In this document: positions 8,186 through 12,936 of the stretch, one piece after another
How the letters are laid out: each line of letters opens with the position of its first letter
How positions within the stretch are numbered: position 1 is the first letter of the stretch
NCBI GenBank assembly: GCA_002695025.1
Contig: NZNV01000017.1
Coordinates: 62,001 to 126,000 of the forward strand
Direction: 5' to 3'
Length of the DNA stretch: 64,000 bases
From: Owenweeksia sp.
GTDB lineage: Bacteria > Bacteroidota > Bacteroidia > Flavobacteriales > Schleiferiaceae
Program-made: the position numbers and the translations under genes
Notes under the pieces: generated by a model
Databases searched by the model: none
What the model was told of the DNA's origin: nothing
The model's input: only the letters and a program-made list of their open reading frames with translations

Positions 8186-10777
8186 TTGGCTAAAAAAAGC
8201 TCCGAAACCCCTTTAATGAAGCAGTACAACCAGATCAAGTCCAGGTATCCGGATGCGTTGCTGTTATTCCGAGTAGGGGATTTTTATGAAACCTTTGGGG
8301 AGGATGCCGTTAAAGCCAGTAAGATACTGGGTATTGTACTTACCAAAAGGGCTAACGGTTCAGCTTCACACATTGAGTTGGCTGGTTTCCCGCACCATTC
8401 GTTGGACACCTACCTTCCAAAGCTGGTAAGGGCTGGTCAGCGGGTGGCTATTTGTGATCAATTGGAAGATCCAAAGGCCACTAAAAAGATCGTAAAGCGG
8501 GGCGTTACGGAATTGGTAACCCCGGGTGTTACTACCAATGACCAGGTGCTACAGGCTAAGTCCAATAACTTCCTTTGTGCCGTATGCCTGGGTGAAGACC
8601 GACACGGGGTGAGTTTTTGTGATATATCTACCGGTGAATTTCTTCTGGCTGAAGGCAACACGGATTATATTGATAAACTGTTGCAAAGTCTCAGGCCTAG
8701 TGAGATATTGTTTTCCAAATCTTCACGCAAGGAATTTGAAAGCTTGTTCGGTAATAGCTATTACAGCTTTTCACTGGACGATTGGGTATATAAGCTGGAT
8801 TTTGCCGAAGAGCTGCTGCGTGATCATTTCAAGACCCAGAATCTAAAAGGTTTCGGAGTTCAGGGAATGAACCAGGGAATCATTGCGGCCGGGGCAGTCT
8901 TTCATTACCTGCGGGAAACGCAGAACAATCGCCTGGCCCATATTACTCATATCAGTCGCATTGATCGTGATGAGTTTGTGTGGATGGACAAATTTACGGT
9001 GCGCAACCTGGAAATATTCAATAGTTACTCGGCTGACGGAACTTCGCTCTTTGATGTGATCGATCATACCCATTCACCTATGGGTGGGCGTCTTTTAAAG
9101 AGGTGGCTGGTTATGCCGCTTAAGTCAGTAAGCAGGATCAAAGAGCGTCAGGATGGTGTGGAAGAGTTCCTGAAACATCCTGAGCTTGCCGTGAATGTTG
9201 CCGAGCGACTTGAAAATATATACGACCTGGAGCGTCTGGTAGCCAAGTTGAGCACCCGCAAGATCAATCCCAAGGAGTTACAACACCTGTACCGGGCCCT
9301 CACCTATGCCAATGAAATAAAACACCTAAGTTCTGGGAAAAAATACCCGGCACTGTCTTCGGTGGTGGATAAGATCAACCCTTGTGAAAAGTTGATAGAA
9401 CGTATTGGACAAACTCTTTGCGAAGAGCCTTCTGTGCAGATCGGCAAAGGACGTGTGATAAGAGAGGGAATTTCCGGAGAGTTAGATGAACTGAGAGGAT
9501 TGTTGACTTCCGGCAAGGATCAACTGCTTGCCATACAGCAACGTGAGGGTGAGCGCACAGGAATACCCAGCCTGAAAATAGCTTTTAACAATGTGTTCGG
9601 TTATTACCTGGAGGTGCGCAATACCCACAAAGGCAAAGTGCCGGAGAGCTGGGTGCGAAAGCAGACACTGGTTAATGCCGAACGTTATATTACCGAGGAG
9701 TTAAAGGAATACGAACACAAGATACTAGGGGCAGAAGACAAGATATTTTTACTGGAGTCACAGCTATACCAGGACCTGGTGGAATATAGTTCCGAATACC
9801 TGGCCCTGATCCAGCAAAATGCCCAGGTTTTGGCAGGTATCGATTGCCTTAGCGCCTTTGCCTCATTGGCCCGTCAGCACAACTATAATCGCCCGCAATT
9901 AGATGATTCGTACCTCATAAACATTGAGGAGGGGCGCCACCCGGTTATTGAAAGGAAATTACCTCTGGGAGAGGAATATATCAGCAATAGTATTCATCTG
10001 GATCGTGAAGAACAGCAAATACTGATGATCACTGGACCTAATATGTCCGGTAAATCAGCTTTATTACGGCAAACAGCCCTCATCTGTATCCTGGCCCAGG
10101 TAGGTTGTTATGTGCCAGCCAAGGCGGCCCGGATGGGAATTATCGATAAGATCTTTGTAAGAGTTGGGGCATCGGATAATATCAGCCAGGGAGAATCCAC
10201 TTTTATGGTGGAGATGAATGAAACTGCCAGCATCCTTAATAACCTTTCGGAGCGTAGCCTGGTACTGTTGGATGAGATCGGTCGTGGTACCAGTACCTAT
10301 GATGGTATTTCCATTGCGTGGTCCATTGCTGAGTTCCTTCATGAACATCCTGGCCGGGCCAAAACGCTCTTTGCTACCCACTATCATGAGCTGAATGAGA
10401 TGGAAGAGATTTTTGAGCGCGTCCGTAATTATAACGTGAGCGTAAAGGAAGTGGATAATTCCATAATCTTTATGCGGAAGCTCAAGCCAGGTGGCAGCCA
10501 GCACAGCTTTGGTATCCACGTGGCGCAAATGGCGGGTATGCCTAACCTGGTGGTGAACAGGGCTAATCAAATGCTTAAAAAGCTGGAAGCCAGTAGAAAG
10601 CAAGATGGAGAGAAGGTGATTACAGCCGGAGATGAAATGCAACTTAGTTTTTTTAAGCTGGATGATCCGATCCTGGAATCCATCAGGGAGGATGTTAAAA
10701 ACCTGGATATTAACACCTTGACTCCCGTAGAGGCGCTAATGAAGCTAAATGAAATAAAAAGAAAAATTGGCGATTAA
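8186..10777 (+). CDS. mutS: DNA mismatch repair protein MutS
   Basis: 863 residues, full-length MutS. The mismatch-reading Phe-x-Glu motif is DFYETFG (F33, E35). The ATPase has a Walker A GPNMSGKS near residue 620 and a Walker B LVLLDEIGRGTSTYDG near 690, followed by the conserved TLFATHYHEL. The start is TTG at 8186, which yields MAKKSSETPLMKQYN, the usual N-terminus of Bacteroidota MutS. An ATG 7 nt upstream at 8179 is in another frame and stops after four codons, overlapping the TTG. The next feature downstream is tRNA-Gly, with no terminator between. Confidence 0.95.
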   Translation: MAKKSSETPLMKQYNQIKSRYPDALLLFRVGDFYETFGEDAVKASKILGIVLTKRANGSASHIELAGFPHHSLDTYLPKLVRAGQRVAICDQLEDPKATKKIVKRGVTELVTPGVTTNDQVLQAKSNNFLCAVCLGEDRHGVSFCDISTGEFLLAEGNTDYIDKLLQSLRPSEILFSKSSRKEFESLFGNSYYSFSLDDWVYKLDFAEELLRDHFKTQNLKGFGVQGMNQGIIAAGAVFHYLRETQNNRLAHITHISRIDRDEFVWMDKFTVRNLEIFNSYSADGTSLFDVIDHTHSPMGGRLLKRWLVMPLKSVSRIKERQDGVEEFLKHPELAVNVAERLENIYDLERLVAKLSTRKINPKELQHLYRALTYANEIKHLSSGKKYPALSSVVDKINPCEKLIERIGQTLCEEPSVQIGKGRVIREGISGELDELRGLLTSGKDQLLAIQQREGERTGIPSLKIAFNNVFGYYLEVRNTHKGKVPESWVRKQTLVNAERYITEELKEYEHKILGAEDKIFLLESQLYQDLVEYSSEYLALIQQNAQVLAGIDCLSAFASLARQHNYNRPQLDDSYLINIEEGRHPVIERKLPLGEEYISNSIHLDREEQQILMITGPNMSGKSALLRQTALICILAQVGCYVPAKAARMGIIDKIFVRVGASDNISQGESTFMVEMNETASILNNLSERSLVLLDEIGRGTSTYDGISIAWSIAEFLHEHPGRAKTLFATHYHELNEMEEIFERVRNYNVSVKEVDNSIIFMRKLKPGGSQHSFGIHVAQMAGMPNLVVNRANQMLKKLEASRKQDGEKVITAGDEMQLSFFKLDDPILESIREDVKNLDINTLTPVEALMKLNEIKRKIGD

Positions 10778-10780
10778 ATT

Positions 10781-10813
10781 TTTGTTGGTTAAATCTTCTT
10801 TTTATTACATTTG
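10781..10813 (+). promoter_or_regulatory. promoter of tRNA-Gly
   Basis: TACATTTG (10806-10813) matches the -7 consensus exactly and ends 12 nt before the tRNA. A TTTG occurs at 10781-10784, but the 21-nt spacing is longer than the usual 17-19, so the upstream element is uncertain. Confidence 0.55.
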
Positions 10814-10825
10814 CCGTCCCTTTTC

Positions 10826-10898
<73 letters not shown>

Positions 10899-10903
10899 CA
10901 ACG

Positions 10904-10927
10904 AAAATCCCGCACTGCGGGATTTTT
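10904..10927 (+). terminator. terminator after tRNA-Gly
   Basis: AAAATCCCGC (10904-10913) pairs perfectly with GCGGGATTTT (10917-10926) around an ACT loop, and the T run continues. It lies 5 nt after the tRNA, so tRNA-Gly is separated from tRNA-Leu transcriptionally. Confidence 0.8.
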
Positions 10928-11018
10928 GGTTTAAGGATTGAAGTTTATAGTAATCCGTTAAGCAGAAAACTTTAAACCTTATAAATTTACCATCACGAAT
11001 TATCCGCTATGCGGAGTC

Positions 11019-11104
11019 GCCCTGGTGGTGGAATTGGTAGACACGCGGGACTTAAAATCCCGTGAACAGCAATGTTCGTGCGGGTTCAAGTCCCGCCTGG
11101 GGCA
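11019..11104 (+). tRNA. tRNA-Leu (anticodon UAA)
   Basis: 86-nt class II tRNA. The acceptor stem is GCCCTGG/CTGGGGC (two G-U pairs), discriminator A. The anticodon stem CGGGA/TCCCG encloses CTTAAAA (anticodon TAA). A long variable arm follows, and the T arm is GCGGG-TTCAAGT-CCCGC. A -7-like TAAATTTA lies upstream near 10984. CCA is not encoded. No copy of its 3' end was found nearby, so there is no sign of an integrated element using it as an attachment site. Confidence 0.95.
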
Positions 11105-11110
11105 CAAGGA

Positions 11111-11140
11111 AAAGCCGATCTGAGAGGATCGGCTTTTTTT
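11111..11140 (+). terminator. terminator after tRNA-Leu
   Basis: AAAGCCGATC and GATCGGCTTT form a perfect 10-bp stem with loop TGAGAG, followed by four further T residues. Confidence 0.88.
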
Positions 11141-11196
11141 ATTGGAGCCCAACAAATCTAATTTTTCTAAACAGGCTGGTCAAATTGGGATTTCTC

Positions 11197-11204
11197 TAAC
11201 TTTG
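11197..11204 (+). promoter_or_regulatory. -7 element candidate ahead of the structured RNA
   Basis: TAACTTTG is a full match to TAnnTTTG. No TTTG at the proper distance was found. If used, transcription would begin near 11210, just before the rod-like structure at 11238-11348. Confidence 0.35.
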
Positions 11205-11373
11205 ACAGGATATTAAAATAGTAGCGTTCGTCTATTCTCGCGACCAGAAACTGCGACACTTCTTTAAGCCGATGAATAGACCAGACGTGCGCGGTACGCG
11301 TGGGTCTTGTCTGTTCGGTTGTGGCATGTCGCAGTGCCTTGGTCGTGGCAGGCAACGGCCCACGTTGCTTTAC
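11205..11373 (+). ncRNA. candidate structured non-coding RNA, family unknown
   Basis: The stretch folds into one long rod made of nested perfect or near-perfect stems. P1 pairs CGACCA (11241-11246) with TGGTCG (11340-11345), extendable by three weaker pairs. P2 pairs CTGCGACA (11251-11258) with TGTCGCAG (11327-11334). P3 pairs about 11267-11272 with 11315-11320. P4 pairs AGACCAGACGTGCGCG (11278-11293) with 11297-11312, having two mismatches and two wobbles, closed by GTA. Internal loops separate the stems. A -7-like box precedes it and a terminator-like hairpin follows. No coding sense was seen in it. The shape recalls 6S RNA, but identity is inference; a DNA palindrome or mobile-element scar is the alternative. 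Confidence 0.4.
11352..11373 (+). terminator. terminator-like hairpin after the structured RNA
   Basis: GCAACG (11352-11357) and CGTTGC (11363-11368) form a 6-bp stem with loop GCCCA, followed by a short TTTACT tail. The weak T run makes termination uncertain. Confidence 0.4.
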
Positions 11374-11509
11374 TCATGAAACATAGCCTAGGGCCAAGGT
11401 GAATAAAACTGCTCTGTATACTTTTCAGCAGTTTACCCGGTGCATTGCAGGGTAAGCTTTTCAAGGGAGGGGGAAAGGTTCACATAGCGGTTTTGCAAAC
11501 TCTTTATAA
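11374..11509. other. intergenic stretch with two further stem-loops
   Basis: AAACTGCT (11406-11413) pairs perfectly with AGCAGTTT (11427-11434), and TTACCC (11433-11438) pairs with GGGTAA (11450-11455), with TGC/GCA inside. The two share nucleotides at 11433-11434, so they nearly stack. The second is followed by GCTTTTC. This may be a leader of the small ORF at 11510 or a continuation of the RNA upstream. Confidence 0.35.
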
Positions 11510-11686
11510 ATGATAAAGGAATTTGAAGCAAAAACGCGTAAAATGGGGTCCACCAAGTTGGAAACCGTGAAAGTGACAGGAAAGACCATGATCAAGGCTT
11601 TGGAGTATCTTCAGGATTTAGGATACAACGAGCCGGACATGATCCGGGTAACGGACACATTGGCTAAACCTCGGCCGGCCGGGTAA
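11510..11686 (+). CDS. small hypothetical protein, 58 aa
   Basis: ATG at 11510, TAA at 11684-11686. The protein is soluble and charged (begins MIKEFEAKTRKMGSTKLETV, ends AKPRPAG), with an even spread of K, E and D, one predicted helix in the middle (ALEYLQDLGY) and no membrane segment. I do not recognise a family. Codon use looks like a real gene, and a perfect 13-bp hairpin begins 11 nt after the stop, supporting a transcript end. There is no clear promoter; the region between it and the structured RNA is a possible leader. Confidence 0.5.
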   Translation: MIKEFEAKTRKMGSTKLETVKVTGKTMIKALEYLQDLGYNEPDMIRVTDTLAKPRPAG

Positions 11687-11696
11687 TGCTGAAACC

Positions 11697-11726
11697 ATAA
11701 AGCTCACCCGAAAGGGTGGGCTTTAT
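11697..11726 (+). terminator. 13-bp perfect hairpin with GAAA tetraloop
   Basis: ATAAAGCTCACCC (11697-11709) pairs along its whole length with GGGTGGGCTTTAT (11714-11726), one T-G wobble, around GAAA. The T run is short (TTTAT), so it is a terminator or an mRNA-stabilising 3' structure for the 58-aa ORF. Confidence 0.6.
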
Positions 11727-12112
11727 AATCCCCGATTTAAGTTCGTTCAATTTTATGATGGCAAACTACCCCTATTTGGACTTGTCCCAAACGGTGTCTG
11801 TATGTCTGGAGCCTTTACTGCCTAAAGCTCACCTTTCATCTTCTGGTTAAATCGTACGCATTTAGACTAATTGTAGCTCCGCAATGCAAGGGAGTACCGG
11901 AACTTAAGATGATGATTGGAACGCCCAAGCTTCTGGCTTCAATTTAAGAGGCTTCGAGGAGGGTAGGCTGGTAACCCCGGTCTTCATTCTGAGTCTAAAA
12001 ACTAATTTTAAACAACAAAGTATAACCTATAAAAAAAGTGACATTTGGAATACTTACTATATCAAGGATGTACAGCAGGCGAATTGAATAAAAAACAGTA
12101 GATTTGATAAAA
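11727..12112. other. gene-free stretch
   Basis: About 385 bp with frequent stops in all frames, no ORF of note, no repeat and no promoter that I can support. The last 100 bp are strongly A-rich. It may be a decayed gene, but no recognisable remnant protein was seen. Confidence 0.5.
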
Positions 12113-12169
12113 TGTAAAAAGAACAGCGTGAGCTGTTCTTTCTTGAAAGGGAGATGGCCACCCTCCCTT
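12113..12169 (-). terminator. tandem hairpins ending the 49-aa ORF transcript
   Basis: Read on the minus strand, AAGGGAG/CTCCCTT (12147-12153 with 12163-12169) is followed by AAAGAACAGC/GCTGTTCTTT (12118-12127 with 12132-12141), a perfect 10-bp stem with a 4-nt loop, then a T-rich tail. The second is a good intrinsic terminator for the ORF ending at 12185, and symmetric enough to work in both directions. Confidence 0.7.
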
Positions 12170-12184
12170 AAAGAGGGTTTCTAA

Positions 12185-12334
12185 TTAAGATACCTGGTCC
12201 GTACTTGTTTTAGATAAAACCTCTTTGTTGGCCATCTTTAACGCCTCATATTCTTCTGAAAGCTGAAGATTGCGTTGAGCTATGCTTTTGATCTTTTGAT
12301 CAATGTGTAAGGAAATTTTCCATTTATCATCCAT
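12185..12334 (-). CDS. small hypothetical protein, 49 aa, coiled-coil-like
   Basis: ATG at 12334, TAA at 12187-12185. The sequence (MDDKWKISLHIDQKIKSIAQ and onward) is highly charged and helix-forming, with heptad-like spacing of I/L/A through residues 9-40; no membrane segment or known domain is recognised. It is followed by a strong terminator and lies divergent from an HTH regulator that also ends in a coiled coil. Pairing of the two proteins is a guess from that resemblance. A short spurious ORF cannot be excluded. Confidence 0.5.
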   Translation of the reverse strand: MDDKWKISLHIDQKIKSIAQRNLQLSEEYEALKMANKEVLSKTSTDQVS

Positions 12335-12406
12335 GGAATGCGCAGTTTAGAGTAGTAAGAAATCCAAATAATTTTAAATGAATGCGATACTTTATAAAGA
12401 CAAGAA

Positions 12407-12483
12407 CGGTAGAAGCCTACCGCTTATCTTAAATAATCAAACATAGAATTTAATATTTCATAACTTTTAGCCACAAAGCTAAA
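12407..12483. promoter_or_regulatory. two inverted repeats between divergent small ORF and HTH gene
   Basis: CGGTAG-AAGC-CTACCG (12407-12422) and TTTAGC-CACAAA-GCTAAA (12466-12483) are perfect inverted repeats in an otherwise A/T-rich 209-bp divergent gap. They are placed where operators for the HTH protein would be expected. No exact TAnnTTTG promoter box was found here. Confidence 0.4.
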
Positions 12484-12543
12484 CTAAAAAGATAAAATAT
12501 CCAAAACGGATAGTTTATTTATTTTAAAGCCTGGTCCGTCATT

Positions 12544-12936
12544 ATGCACATTGGAAACAAACTGAGGTTTCTGATTGAAACCCGTAGCGTCAGCAAAAAG
12601 GATTTTGCTGAAGCGCTGGATACAACAGAGCAAAACCTGCATAAGATCCTGAACAAGGATTCTATACAGTTGAATTTGCTTTTACGATTCTGTAAACTTC
12701 TTGAAGTCCATCCCAATCACTTCTTTGAGGATTGGGACTGGAAGAGCTCGCCCGTGGATGTGAGTGAGAGCGTGGAAACTTACAAAACACGTCATCGCGG
12801 TCGCTCCTCCGACATTGAGAAAGTCAGCCGGATATTTGATACCGTGATTGATGAAAAAGACAAGAGGATAAAAGAGCTCGAAGACCATATCAAGAGCCTG
12901 AAACGTGAGATCCGCACTCTTAAGAAGAAAGAATAA
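12544..12936 (+). CDS. Xre-type HTH regulator with C-terminal coiled coil
   Basis: 130 residues. The N-terminal 60 or so form a Cro/C1-type helix-turn-helix (KKDFAEALDTTEQNLHKIL, followed by the short LLLRFCKLLEVHPNHFF helices). The last 40 residues (from about 92, DTVIDEKDKRIKELEDHIK and onward) form a Lys/Glu-rich coiled coil ending KKKE. This arrangement is common in Bacteroidota, where the coiled coil probably mediates dimerisation; targets are unknown. The region upstream holds two inverted repeats. Its 3' end overlaps the convergent waaA gene by 17 bp. Confidence 0.8.
   Translation: MHIGNKLRFLIETRSVSKKDFAEALDTTEQNLHKILNKDSIQLNLLLRFCKLLEVHPNHFFEDWDWKSSPVDVSESVETYKTRHRGRSSDIEKVSRIFDTVIDEKDKRIKELEDHIKSLKREIRTLKKKE

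Follow-up and report, generated by a model that had tools for sequence, protein, structure and literature searches.

Which kind of element is the rod-like palindrome that follows a tRNA-Gly and a tRNA-Leu at positions 11205 to 11373 of the window, by which we mean the whole analysed stretch of 64,000 nucleotides? The initial annotation took it for a candidate unannotated structured RNA preceded by a −7-like box and more extensively paired than expected by chance, and offered a 6S-Flavo-type RNA and an attC-like or mobile-element palindrome as hypotheses. The excess of structure is real, since 11205 to 11373 folds at −70.5 kcal/mol, compared with −51.8 ± 4.5 kcal/mol for shuffled sequences (z −4.14), and none of 200 shuffles equals it. 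The −7-like box said to precede the rod was recovered as TAACTTTG at 11197 to 11204, and two copies of the window's genus retain it, as TAACTTTG and TAAATTTG. The + strand over 11205 to 11373 has no ORF of at least 40 amino acids, in agreement with the remark that no reading frame there looks coding. Judged from these features, the RNA looks transcribed. The terminator-like hairpin noted on the 3′ side needs revision: a terminator-like element exists, but the GCAACG/CGTTGC pairing at 11353 to 11365 is not conserved and is broken in the sister copy, and the hairpin supported by comparison is longer (11298 to 11365) and uses the apical 3′ strand of the rod. The features of the locus are as follows.

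11197 to 11204, + strand: Bacteroidota-type −7 promoter box, TAACTTTG (from the sequence, the genus copies, and homologues)
11224 to 11237, + strand: 5′ switching strand a (GCGUU..GUCUAUUC), partner of 11274 to 11288 in the alternative hairpin H1 (fold energy, coevolution)
11224 to 11288, + strand: hairpin H1, −17.7 kcal/mol
11238 to 11348, + strand: the rod (state R), −59.0 kcal/mol on its own (energy, covariation)
11238 to 11247 with 11339 to 11348, + strand: rod helix A
11250 to 11258 with 11327 to 11335, + strand: rod helix B
within 11238 to 11348, + strand: rod interior, consisting of inner helices C and D and then apical hairpin E
11247 to 11250 (5′ side) and 11336 to 11338 (3′ side), + strand: internal-loop core at the A/B junction, GAAA facing ACC in the family, near-invariant in the alignments
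11274 to 11288, + strand: strand D1 (GAAUAGAC..GACGU), pairing with the rod's inner 3′ strand or with strand a in H1 (coevolution)
11298 to 11365, + strand: alternative hairpin H2 (state H), terminator-like in the family, −37.7 kcal/mol, pairing the apical 3′ strand CGUGGGUC-UUGUCUG with the tail CAGGCAA-c-GGCCCACG (energy, coevolution)
11366 to 11374, + strand: U-tract position, weak in the window copy (TGCTTTACT) and strong in most relatives (family T content)
11387 to 11399, + strand: small hairpin CCT-AGGGCCA-AGG, whose loop GGGCC complements the tail GGCCC, a possible pseudoknot (from the sequence, suggestive only)
11510 to 11686, + strand: small ORF of 58 amino acids, the leader's downstream gene in the window's genus (dN/dS, homologues)
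11699 to 11724, + strand: terminator-like hairpin past the small ORF, AAGCTCACCC-GAAA-GGGTGGGCTT (from the sequence)

A second copy of the RNA is present in the window genome (G000:C37:2446-2621, 81% identical) and a third in the sister genome G002 of the same genus (80% identity), one contig of which is titled uncultured Cryomorphaceae. In all three close copies, the rod is followed by a conserved block comprising GGGAGG and the small ORF; at the position of the window's post-ORF hairpin, the other two carry a different one. The covariance model R1, built from three genus copies, led to a fourth and divergent copy (G002:C7) that likewise has a related small ORF behind it; a homologue of this ORF lies downstream of all four genus copies. 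The genus' third genome has no copy of the RNA. The four copies are not syntenic, and the position of the RNA is not conserved, since the place in G002 carrying the window's downstream neighbours has neither the RNA, nor the small ORF, nor the tRNAs. A 27-bp match in G025 was judged to be due to chance because only this short stretch aligns and its flanks are unlike the rod.

The small protein of the genus measures 47 to 58 amino acids, and its dN/dS of 0.08 to 0.12 against two paralogues/orthologues, with changes mostly at codon position 3, indicates that it is under purifying selection. It has no relative in Pfam, NCBIfam, or PDB, with PHROG and PDB matches being insignificant, and its AlphaFold model (beta-beta-alpha-beta, pLDDT 75) is too weak as a fold-search query. 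Weak profile matches across the phylum (E of 0.02 to 0.1, mostly to long frames) were attributed to chance, a tblastn search with the 47-aa homologue against plasmids and phages gave nothing usable, and protein searches of viral contigs found nothing.

Several observations concern the surroundings of the genus copies. An inverted pair of AAGGGAGG-type motifs flanks the intergenic region of the RNA in the window (11457 to 11471 and 12161 to 12175), and similar motifs occur before the small ORF in genus copies and at the corresponding place of the sister genome. The fourth copy adjoins an integrated block that resembles an ssDNA phage or rolling-circle element and is oriented away from the RNA (L033:115-4310; L034:126-2566 and 9892-12669). 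This block encodes a Rep_1-like protein of 534 aa (GLHIHLHCLVF motif), which has no relative among 20 related genomes, an SSB, a P-loop packaging-type ATPase of 186 aa, and small membrane proteins. The second copy of the window genome adjoins a 488-aa protein without a Pfam match and an HTH regulator (L006:4265-6007).

Beyond the genus, the four-sequence model R2 (E up to 0.05) matched in 65 of 395 genomes, with up to six copies per genome. Read individually, the 64 best loci form a single family with the near-invariant blocks GAAAACUGG, GCGUGGGC, CCAGUACCUC, and CCACGC. The 68-sequence model R3 (E up to 0.001) found matches in 66 of the 395 sampled Bacteroidota genomes (~17%, about one in six), belonging to 37 of 171 genera and several classes, again with up to six per genome and with a lowest E of 4e-26. 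Plasmids of Chryseobacterium shandongense and Rhizosphaericola mali also have copies, as do six viral contigs, which were found via the DNA pattern of the RNA core and then confirmed with the model. Checked against Rfam with the 6S models included, as the initial annotation had envisaged, the window matched only the tRNA-Gly and the tRNA-Leu. Rfam 15 returned no family match to the RNA for the window and 20 relatives at gathering, nothing relevant for three relatives at E up to 1, and no convincing match for window positions 11100 to 11500 at E up to 10. In open-access papers, we did not find a description of this RNA; the family is new in the sense of being absent from Rfam 15 and from the open literature searched.

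In homologues, where compensatory changes had been proposed as a check, covariation is strong. Over the 68 aligned sequences, rod helices A, B, D, and E are paired in 92.7% of cells, and two-sided changes are seen in 21 of their 27 pairs. The two-sided cells number 313, compared with 91 ± 11 after shuffling, and none of 500 shuffles matches either the cell count or the score; when the alignment is slid out of register, pairing amounts to only 32 to 41%. The top pairwise covariation falls in helices A and B, and the list of covarying pairs also includes pairs that cross the rod.

These crossing pairs belong with a second fold, in which strand a pairs with D1 and the apical 3′ strand pairs with the tail. 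We compared the folds through their coevolution gain, i.e., the difference in duplex energy between strands taken from the same sequence and strands taken from different sequences. The test supports helices A and B, and it gives gains of 6.6 kcal/mol for D1:D2 and 2.2 kcal/mol for E1:E2 in the rod and of 8.3 kcal/mol for a:D1 (64 sequences) and 6.9 kcal/mol for D2E2:tail in the alternative fold, whereas the control a:tail gains 0.3 kcal/mol and four other controls gain −0.3 to 0.5 kcal/mol. The alternative set consisting of A, B, a:D1, and E2:tail is 95.2% paired and has 304 two-sided cells spread over 22 of 27 pairs; by itself, the tail helix reaches 99.4% paired across the 68 sequences. The result held out of sample: in 27 sequences not previously used, aligned with a model of the rod only, the gains were 5.8 ± 0.6 for a:D1, 5.0 ± 0.7 for D2E2:tail, and 0.3 ± 0.3 kcal/mol for a:tail. 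The a:tail closing helix, which RNAalifold had drawn on the earliest alignments (three and four copies) and which entered models R1 and R2, was accordingly rejected, its gain of 0.3 kcal/mol denoting no coevolution.

Since D1 pairs with a or with D2, and E2 with E1 or with the tail, but never with both, the RNA has two conformations, and the coevolution of either set of strands argues that each is maintained by selection. In the window copy, their energies are close (−59.0 kcal/mol for the rod versus −55.4 kcal/mol for H1 plus H2); averaged over the family, the rod is the more stable by about 7 kcal/mol if loop-loop pairing is left out of account. The two folds could also be successive folding intermediates rather than the states of a regulated switch.

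The 10 nt following the tail contain a mean of 7.05 T versus a background of 3.15, and at least 6 T in 94% of the loci versus 9.5% of background; of the four copies in the window's genus, three have a weak tract. Of 64 loci, 55 carry a TAnnTT[TA]G box no more than 70 nt before the RNA; the consensus used is loose, and other promoters may escape it. The first ORF downstream shares the strand of the RNA at 60 of 64 loci and at 23 of 27 new ones, 83 of 91 altogether (P 4e-17), and the first ORF upstream does so at 22 of 57. An ORF of at least 45 amino acids begins within 75 nt in 28 of the 64 loci. In a curated 24 of these 28, used for the promoter search, a −7-like box precedes the RNA 20 times and never occurs between the terminator and the start codon, and therefore these genes would depend on read-through.

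As for the genes themselves, 57 downstream ORFs were scanned, one per locus. Nine contain a TonB receptor plug domain, single ones match a response regulator, a subtilase, conjugation, and a methyltransferase, and the remainder are mostly unmatched lipoproteins and secreted or small proteins. No common function is visible among the 57, and this heterogeneity gives no hint of a ligand. PADLOC gave only scattered single matches. A conserved leader peptide was ruled out because the copies do not all share the leader's start codons. At eight loci (L054, L056, L059, L078, L091, L100, L105, and L110), a palindrome ACGACA-N-TGTCGT is located about 60 to 110 nt past the tail, close to a promoter-like TTTG box that precedes T9SS or lipoprotein genes; the palindrome is perhaps a separate operator. 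A related protein of ~120 aa (SANELYD...ICRHKKNFEVEIWKF) directly follows the RNA at L073:765-1127 and L120:5197-5559, one locus being chromosomal and the other on a mobilizable plasmid.

Because the RNA combines a promoter, a structured leader, two exclusive and selected folds, one of which is a hairpin with a U tract, and a gene on the same strand for which no separate promoter is visible, we consider it rather likely to serve the downstream gene as a 5′ leader and to act as a bistable transcription attenuator. Sequence comparison shows the two folds and that they exclude each other, along with the U tract, the promoter box, and the same-strand gene; we infer transcription, actual termination, the order of folding, the direction of control, and control by a signal. 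Transcription would begin just 3′ of the −7 box, and as the RNA emerges, strand a and D1 would pair first, forming H1. Should H1 be held, the apical 3′ strand would later be free for the tail, and the resulting H2 with the U tract present in most members should end transcription (OFF). Pairing of D1 with D2 and of E1 with E2, as in the rod, would instead leave the tail unpaired, so that no terminator would form and the polymerase would enter the gene (ON). For a binding site, the obvious candidate is the GAAA/ACC loop that separates helices A and B; this loop is also the likeliest place at which a ligand or protein might bias the choice of fold.

The first rival is a trans-acting sRNA encoded by a stand-alone gene of ~190 nt that has a promoter and an intrinsic terminator to itself; the second fold would then be a folding intermediate. 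The promoter box and the U-tract terminator do flank the RNA precisely, the RNA is multi-copy, and some loci have over 200 nt between the RNA and the next gene; a −7-like box of that gene's own follows the terminator in 4 of 27 distant-gene loci, where the RNA might therefore be transcribed independently. The same-strand bias of the next gene argues against it, as does the position of the close genes, which at about a third of the loci begin 16 to 75 nt past the U tract without an intervening −7-like box. So does the coevolution of the antiterminator-type pairings D1:D2 and E1:E2, which is as good as that of the terminator. We regard an sRNA gene as unlikely.

A DNA-level hairpin for recombination or mobility (attC-like, an insertion-sequence end, or an ssDNA origin) scattered beside accessory genes would account for the patchy, multi-copy occurrence, also on two plasmids and six viral contigs, for the lack of synteny in the genus and the empty syntenic place of the sister genome, and for the one genus copy that adjoins an integrated HUH-Rep/SSB element. 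The pattern of wobble pairs speaks against it: on the + strand, the tail helix has 64 G-U cells versus 3 unpaired ones, and the opposite strand would have A-C mismatches in their place; in helices A and B, weighted cells amount to 11 G-U versus 4 A-C. Promoter, orientation, and U tract are moreover conserved while the neighbouring genes differ, and the 57 downstream ORFs scanned include neither an integrase nor a transposase. The palindrome hypothesis of the initial annotation found no positive support, given the abundant G-U wobbles and the nearly constant presence of a promoter and a same-strand gene, and we deem it quite improbable.

Least probable is a purely translational regulator, in which the free tail would pair with the loop of a small UUGGGACUG-type hairpin that lies 20 to 35 nt downstream and directly precedes the start codon, and the folds would alter ribosome access instead of termination: most close-gene loci and all four genus copies show the complementarity, and the poor U tract of the genus would fit, but the coevolution gain is weak (1.8 ± 0.5 versus 0.65 and −0.05 in control regions), which leaves the pairing suggestive only, the hairpin is absent from some close-gene loci, and the U tract is strongly conserved across the family. 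Within the attenuator reading, the tail-loop pairing may add translational control, and the weak U tract of the window copy may mean that control there is partly translational, via the tail and the small downstream hairpin.

It is quite possible, though somewhat less likely than not, that the family constitutes a so far undescribed phylum-wide class of RNA switch that works by a paired four-strand exchange, its conserved GAAA/ACC core sensing one shared signal and so gating read-through into many accessory and mobile Bacteroidota genes that are unrelated to one another. If the RNA is a switch, one signal would coordinate accessory genes such as those for SusC-like transporters, lipoproteins, and small uncharacterised proteins. 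In any case, a structured RNA family that is apparently widespread, including on plasmids and viral contigs, is missing from Rfam 15, and its 68 aligned sequences supply exact compensatory changes that can be used as test mutations.

Among known systems, 6S-Flavo RNA (RF01685) resembles the present RNA in its rod shape and phylum but differs from it, the present RNA being multi-copy, leader-like, patchy, and not universal. RF01685 does not match the window at gathering, nor positions 11100 to 11500 at E up to 10. A 6S identity was therefore abandoned, there being a better candidate elsewhere in the genome: G000:C29:46376-46485 (L027) matches 6S-Flavo over its full length (1 to 108) with 58.6 bits and an E of 1e-8, the Rfam cut-off being 85, and is probably the genome's real 6S RNA. 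The Flavo-1 motif (RF01705) is likewise found scattered in Bacteroidota. It is a Bacteroidetes motif listed as probably not cis-regulatory (PMC2864571), and in F. psychrophilum, its matches are both sense and antisense to transcripts (PMC9723704), whereas the orientation of the present RNA to the gene is fixed; RF01705 matched none of the copies tested. The same F. psychrophilum transcriptome contains many structured 5′ regions without Rfam matches (PMC9723704).

Integron attC sites are, like the present RNA, imperfect rod-like palindromes by mobile or accessory genes. The present RNA differs in having an upstream promoter, a fixed position before a gene, a U tract, and a conserved loop core, and its wobble pattern favours the + strand, unlike attC, which folds from the bottom strand. 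No integron integrase was found among the downstream ORFs scanned (one per locus) and, with respect to an insertion-sequence end, no transposase domain in the 57.

The closest likeness is to terminator/antiterminator leaders, transcription-attenuating riboswitches included, which likewise have a promoter, a structured 5′ leader, exclusive pairings, and a same-strand gene. The comparison located the same-strand gene, the hairpin with its U tract, the antiterminator pairing, and, at close-gene loci, a −7-like box solely upstream of the RNA. Unlike known attenuating leaders, the present RNA has no known aptamer or Rfam family, and its downstream genes are unrelated and accessory. Where known attenuators make one exchange of strands, it has two, a or D2 for D1 and E1 or the tail for E2.
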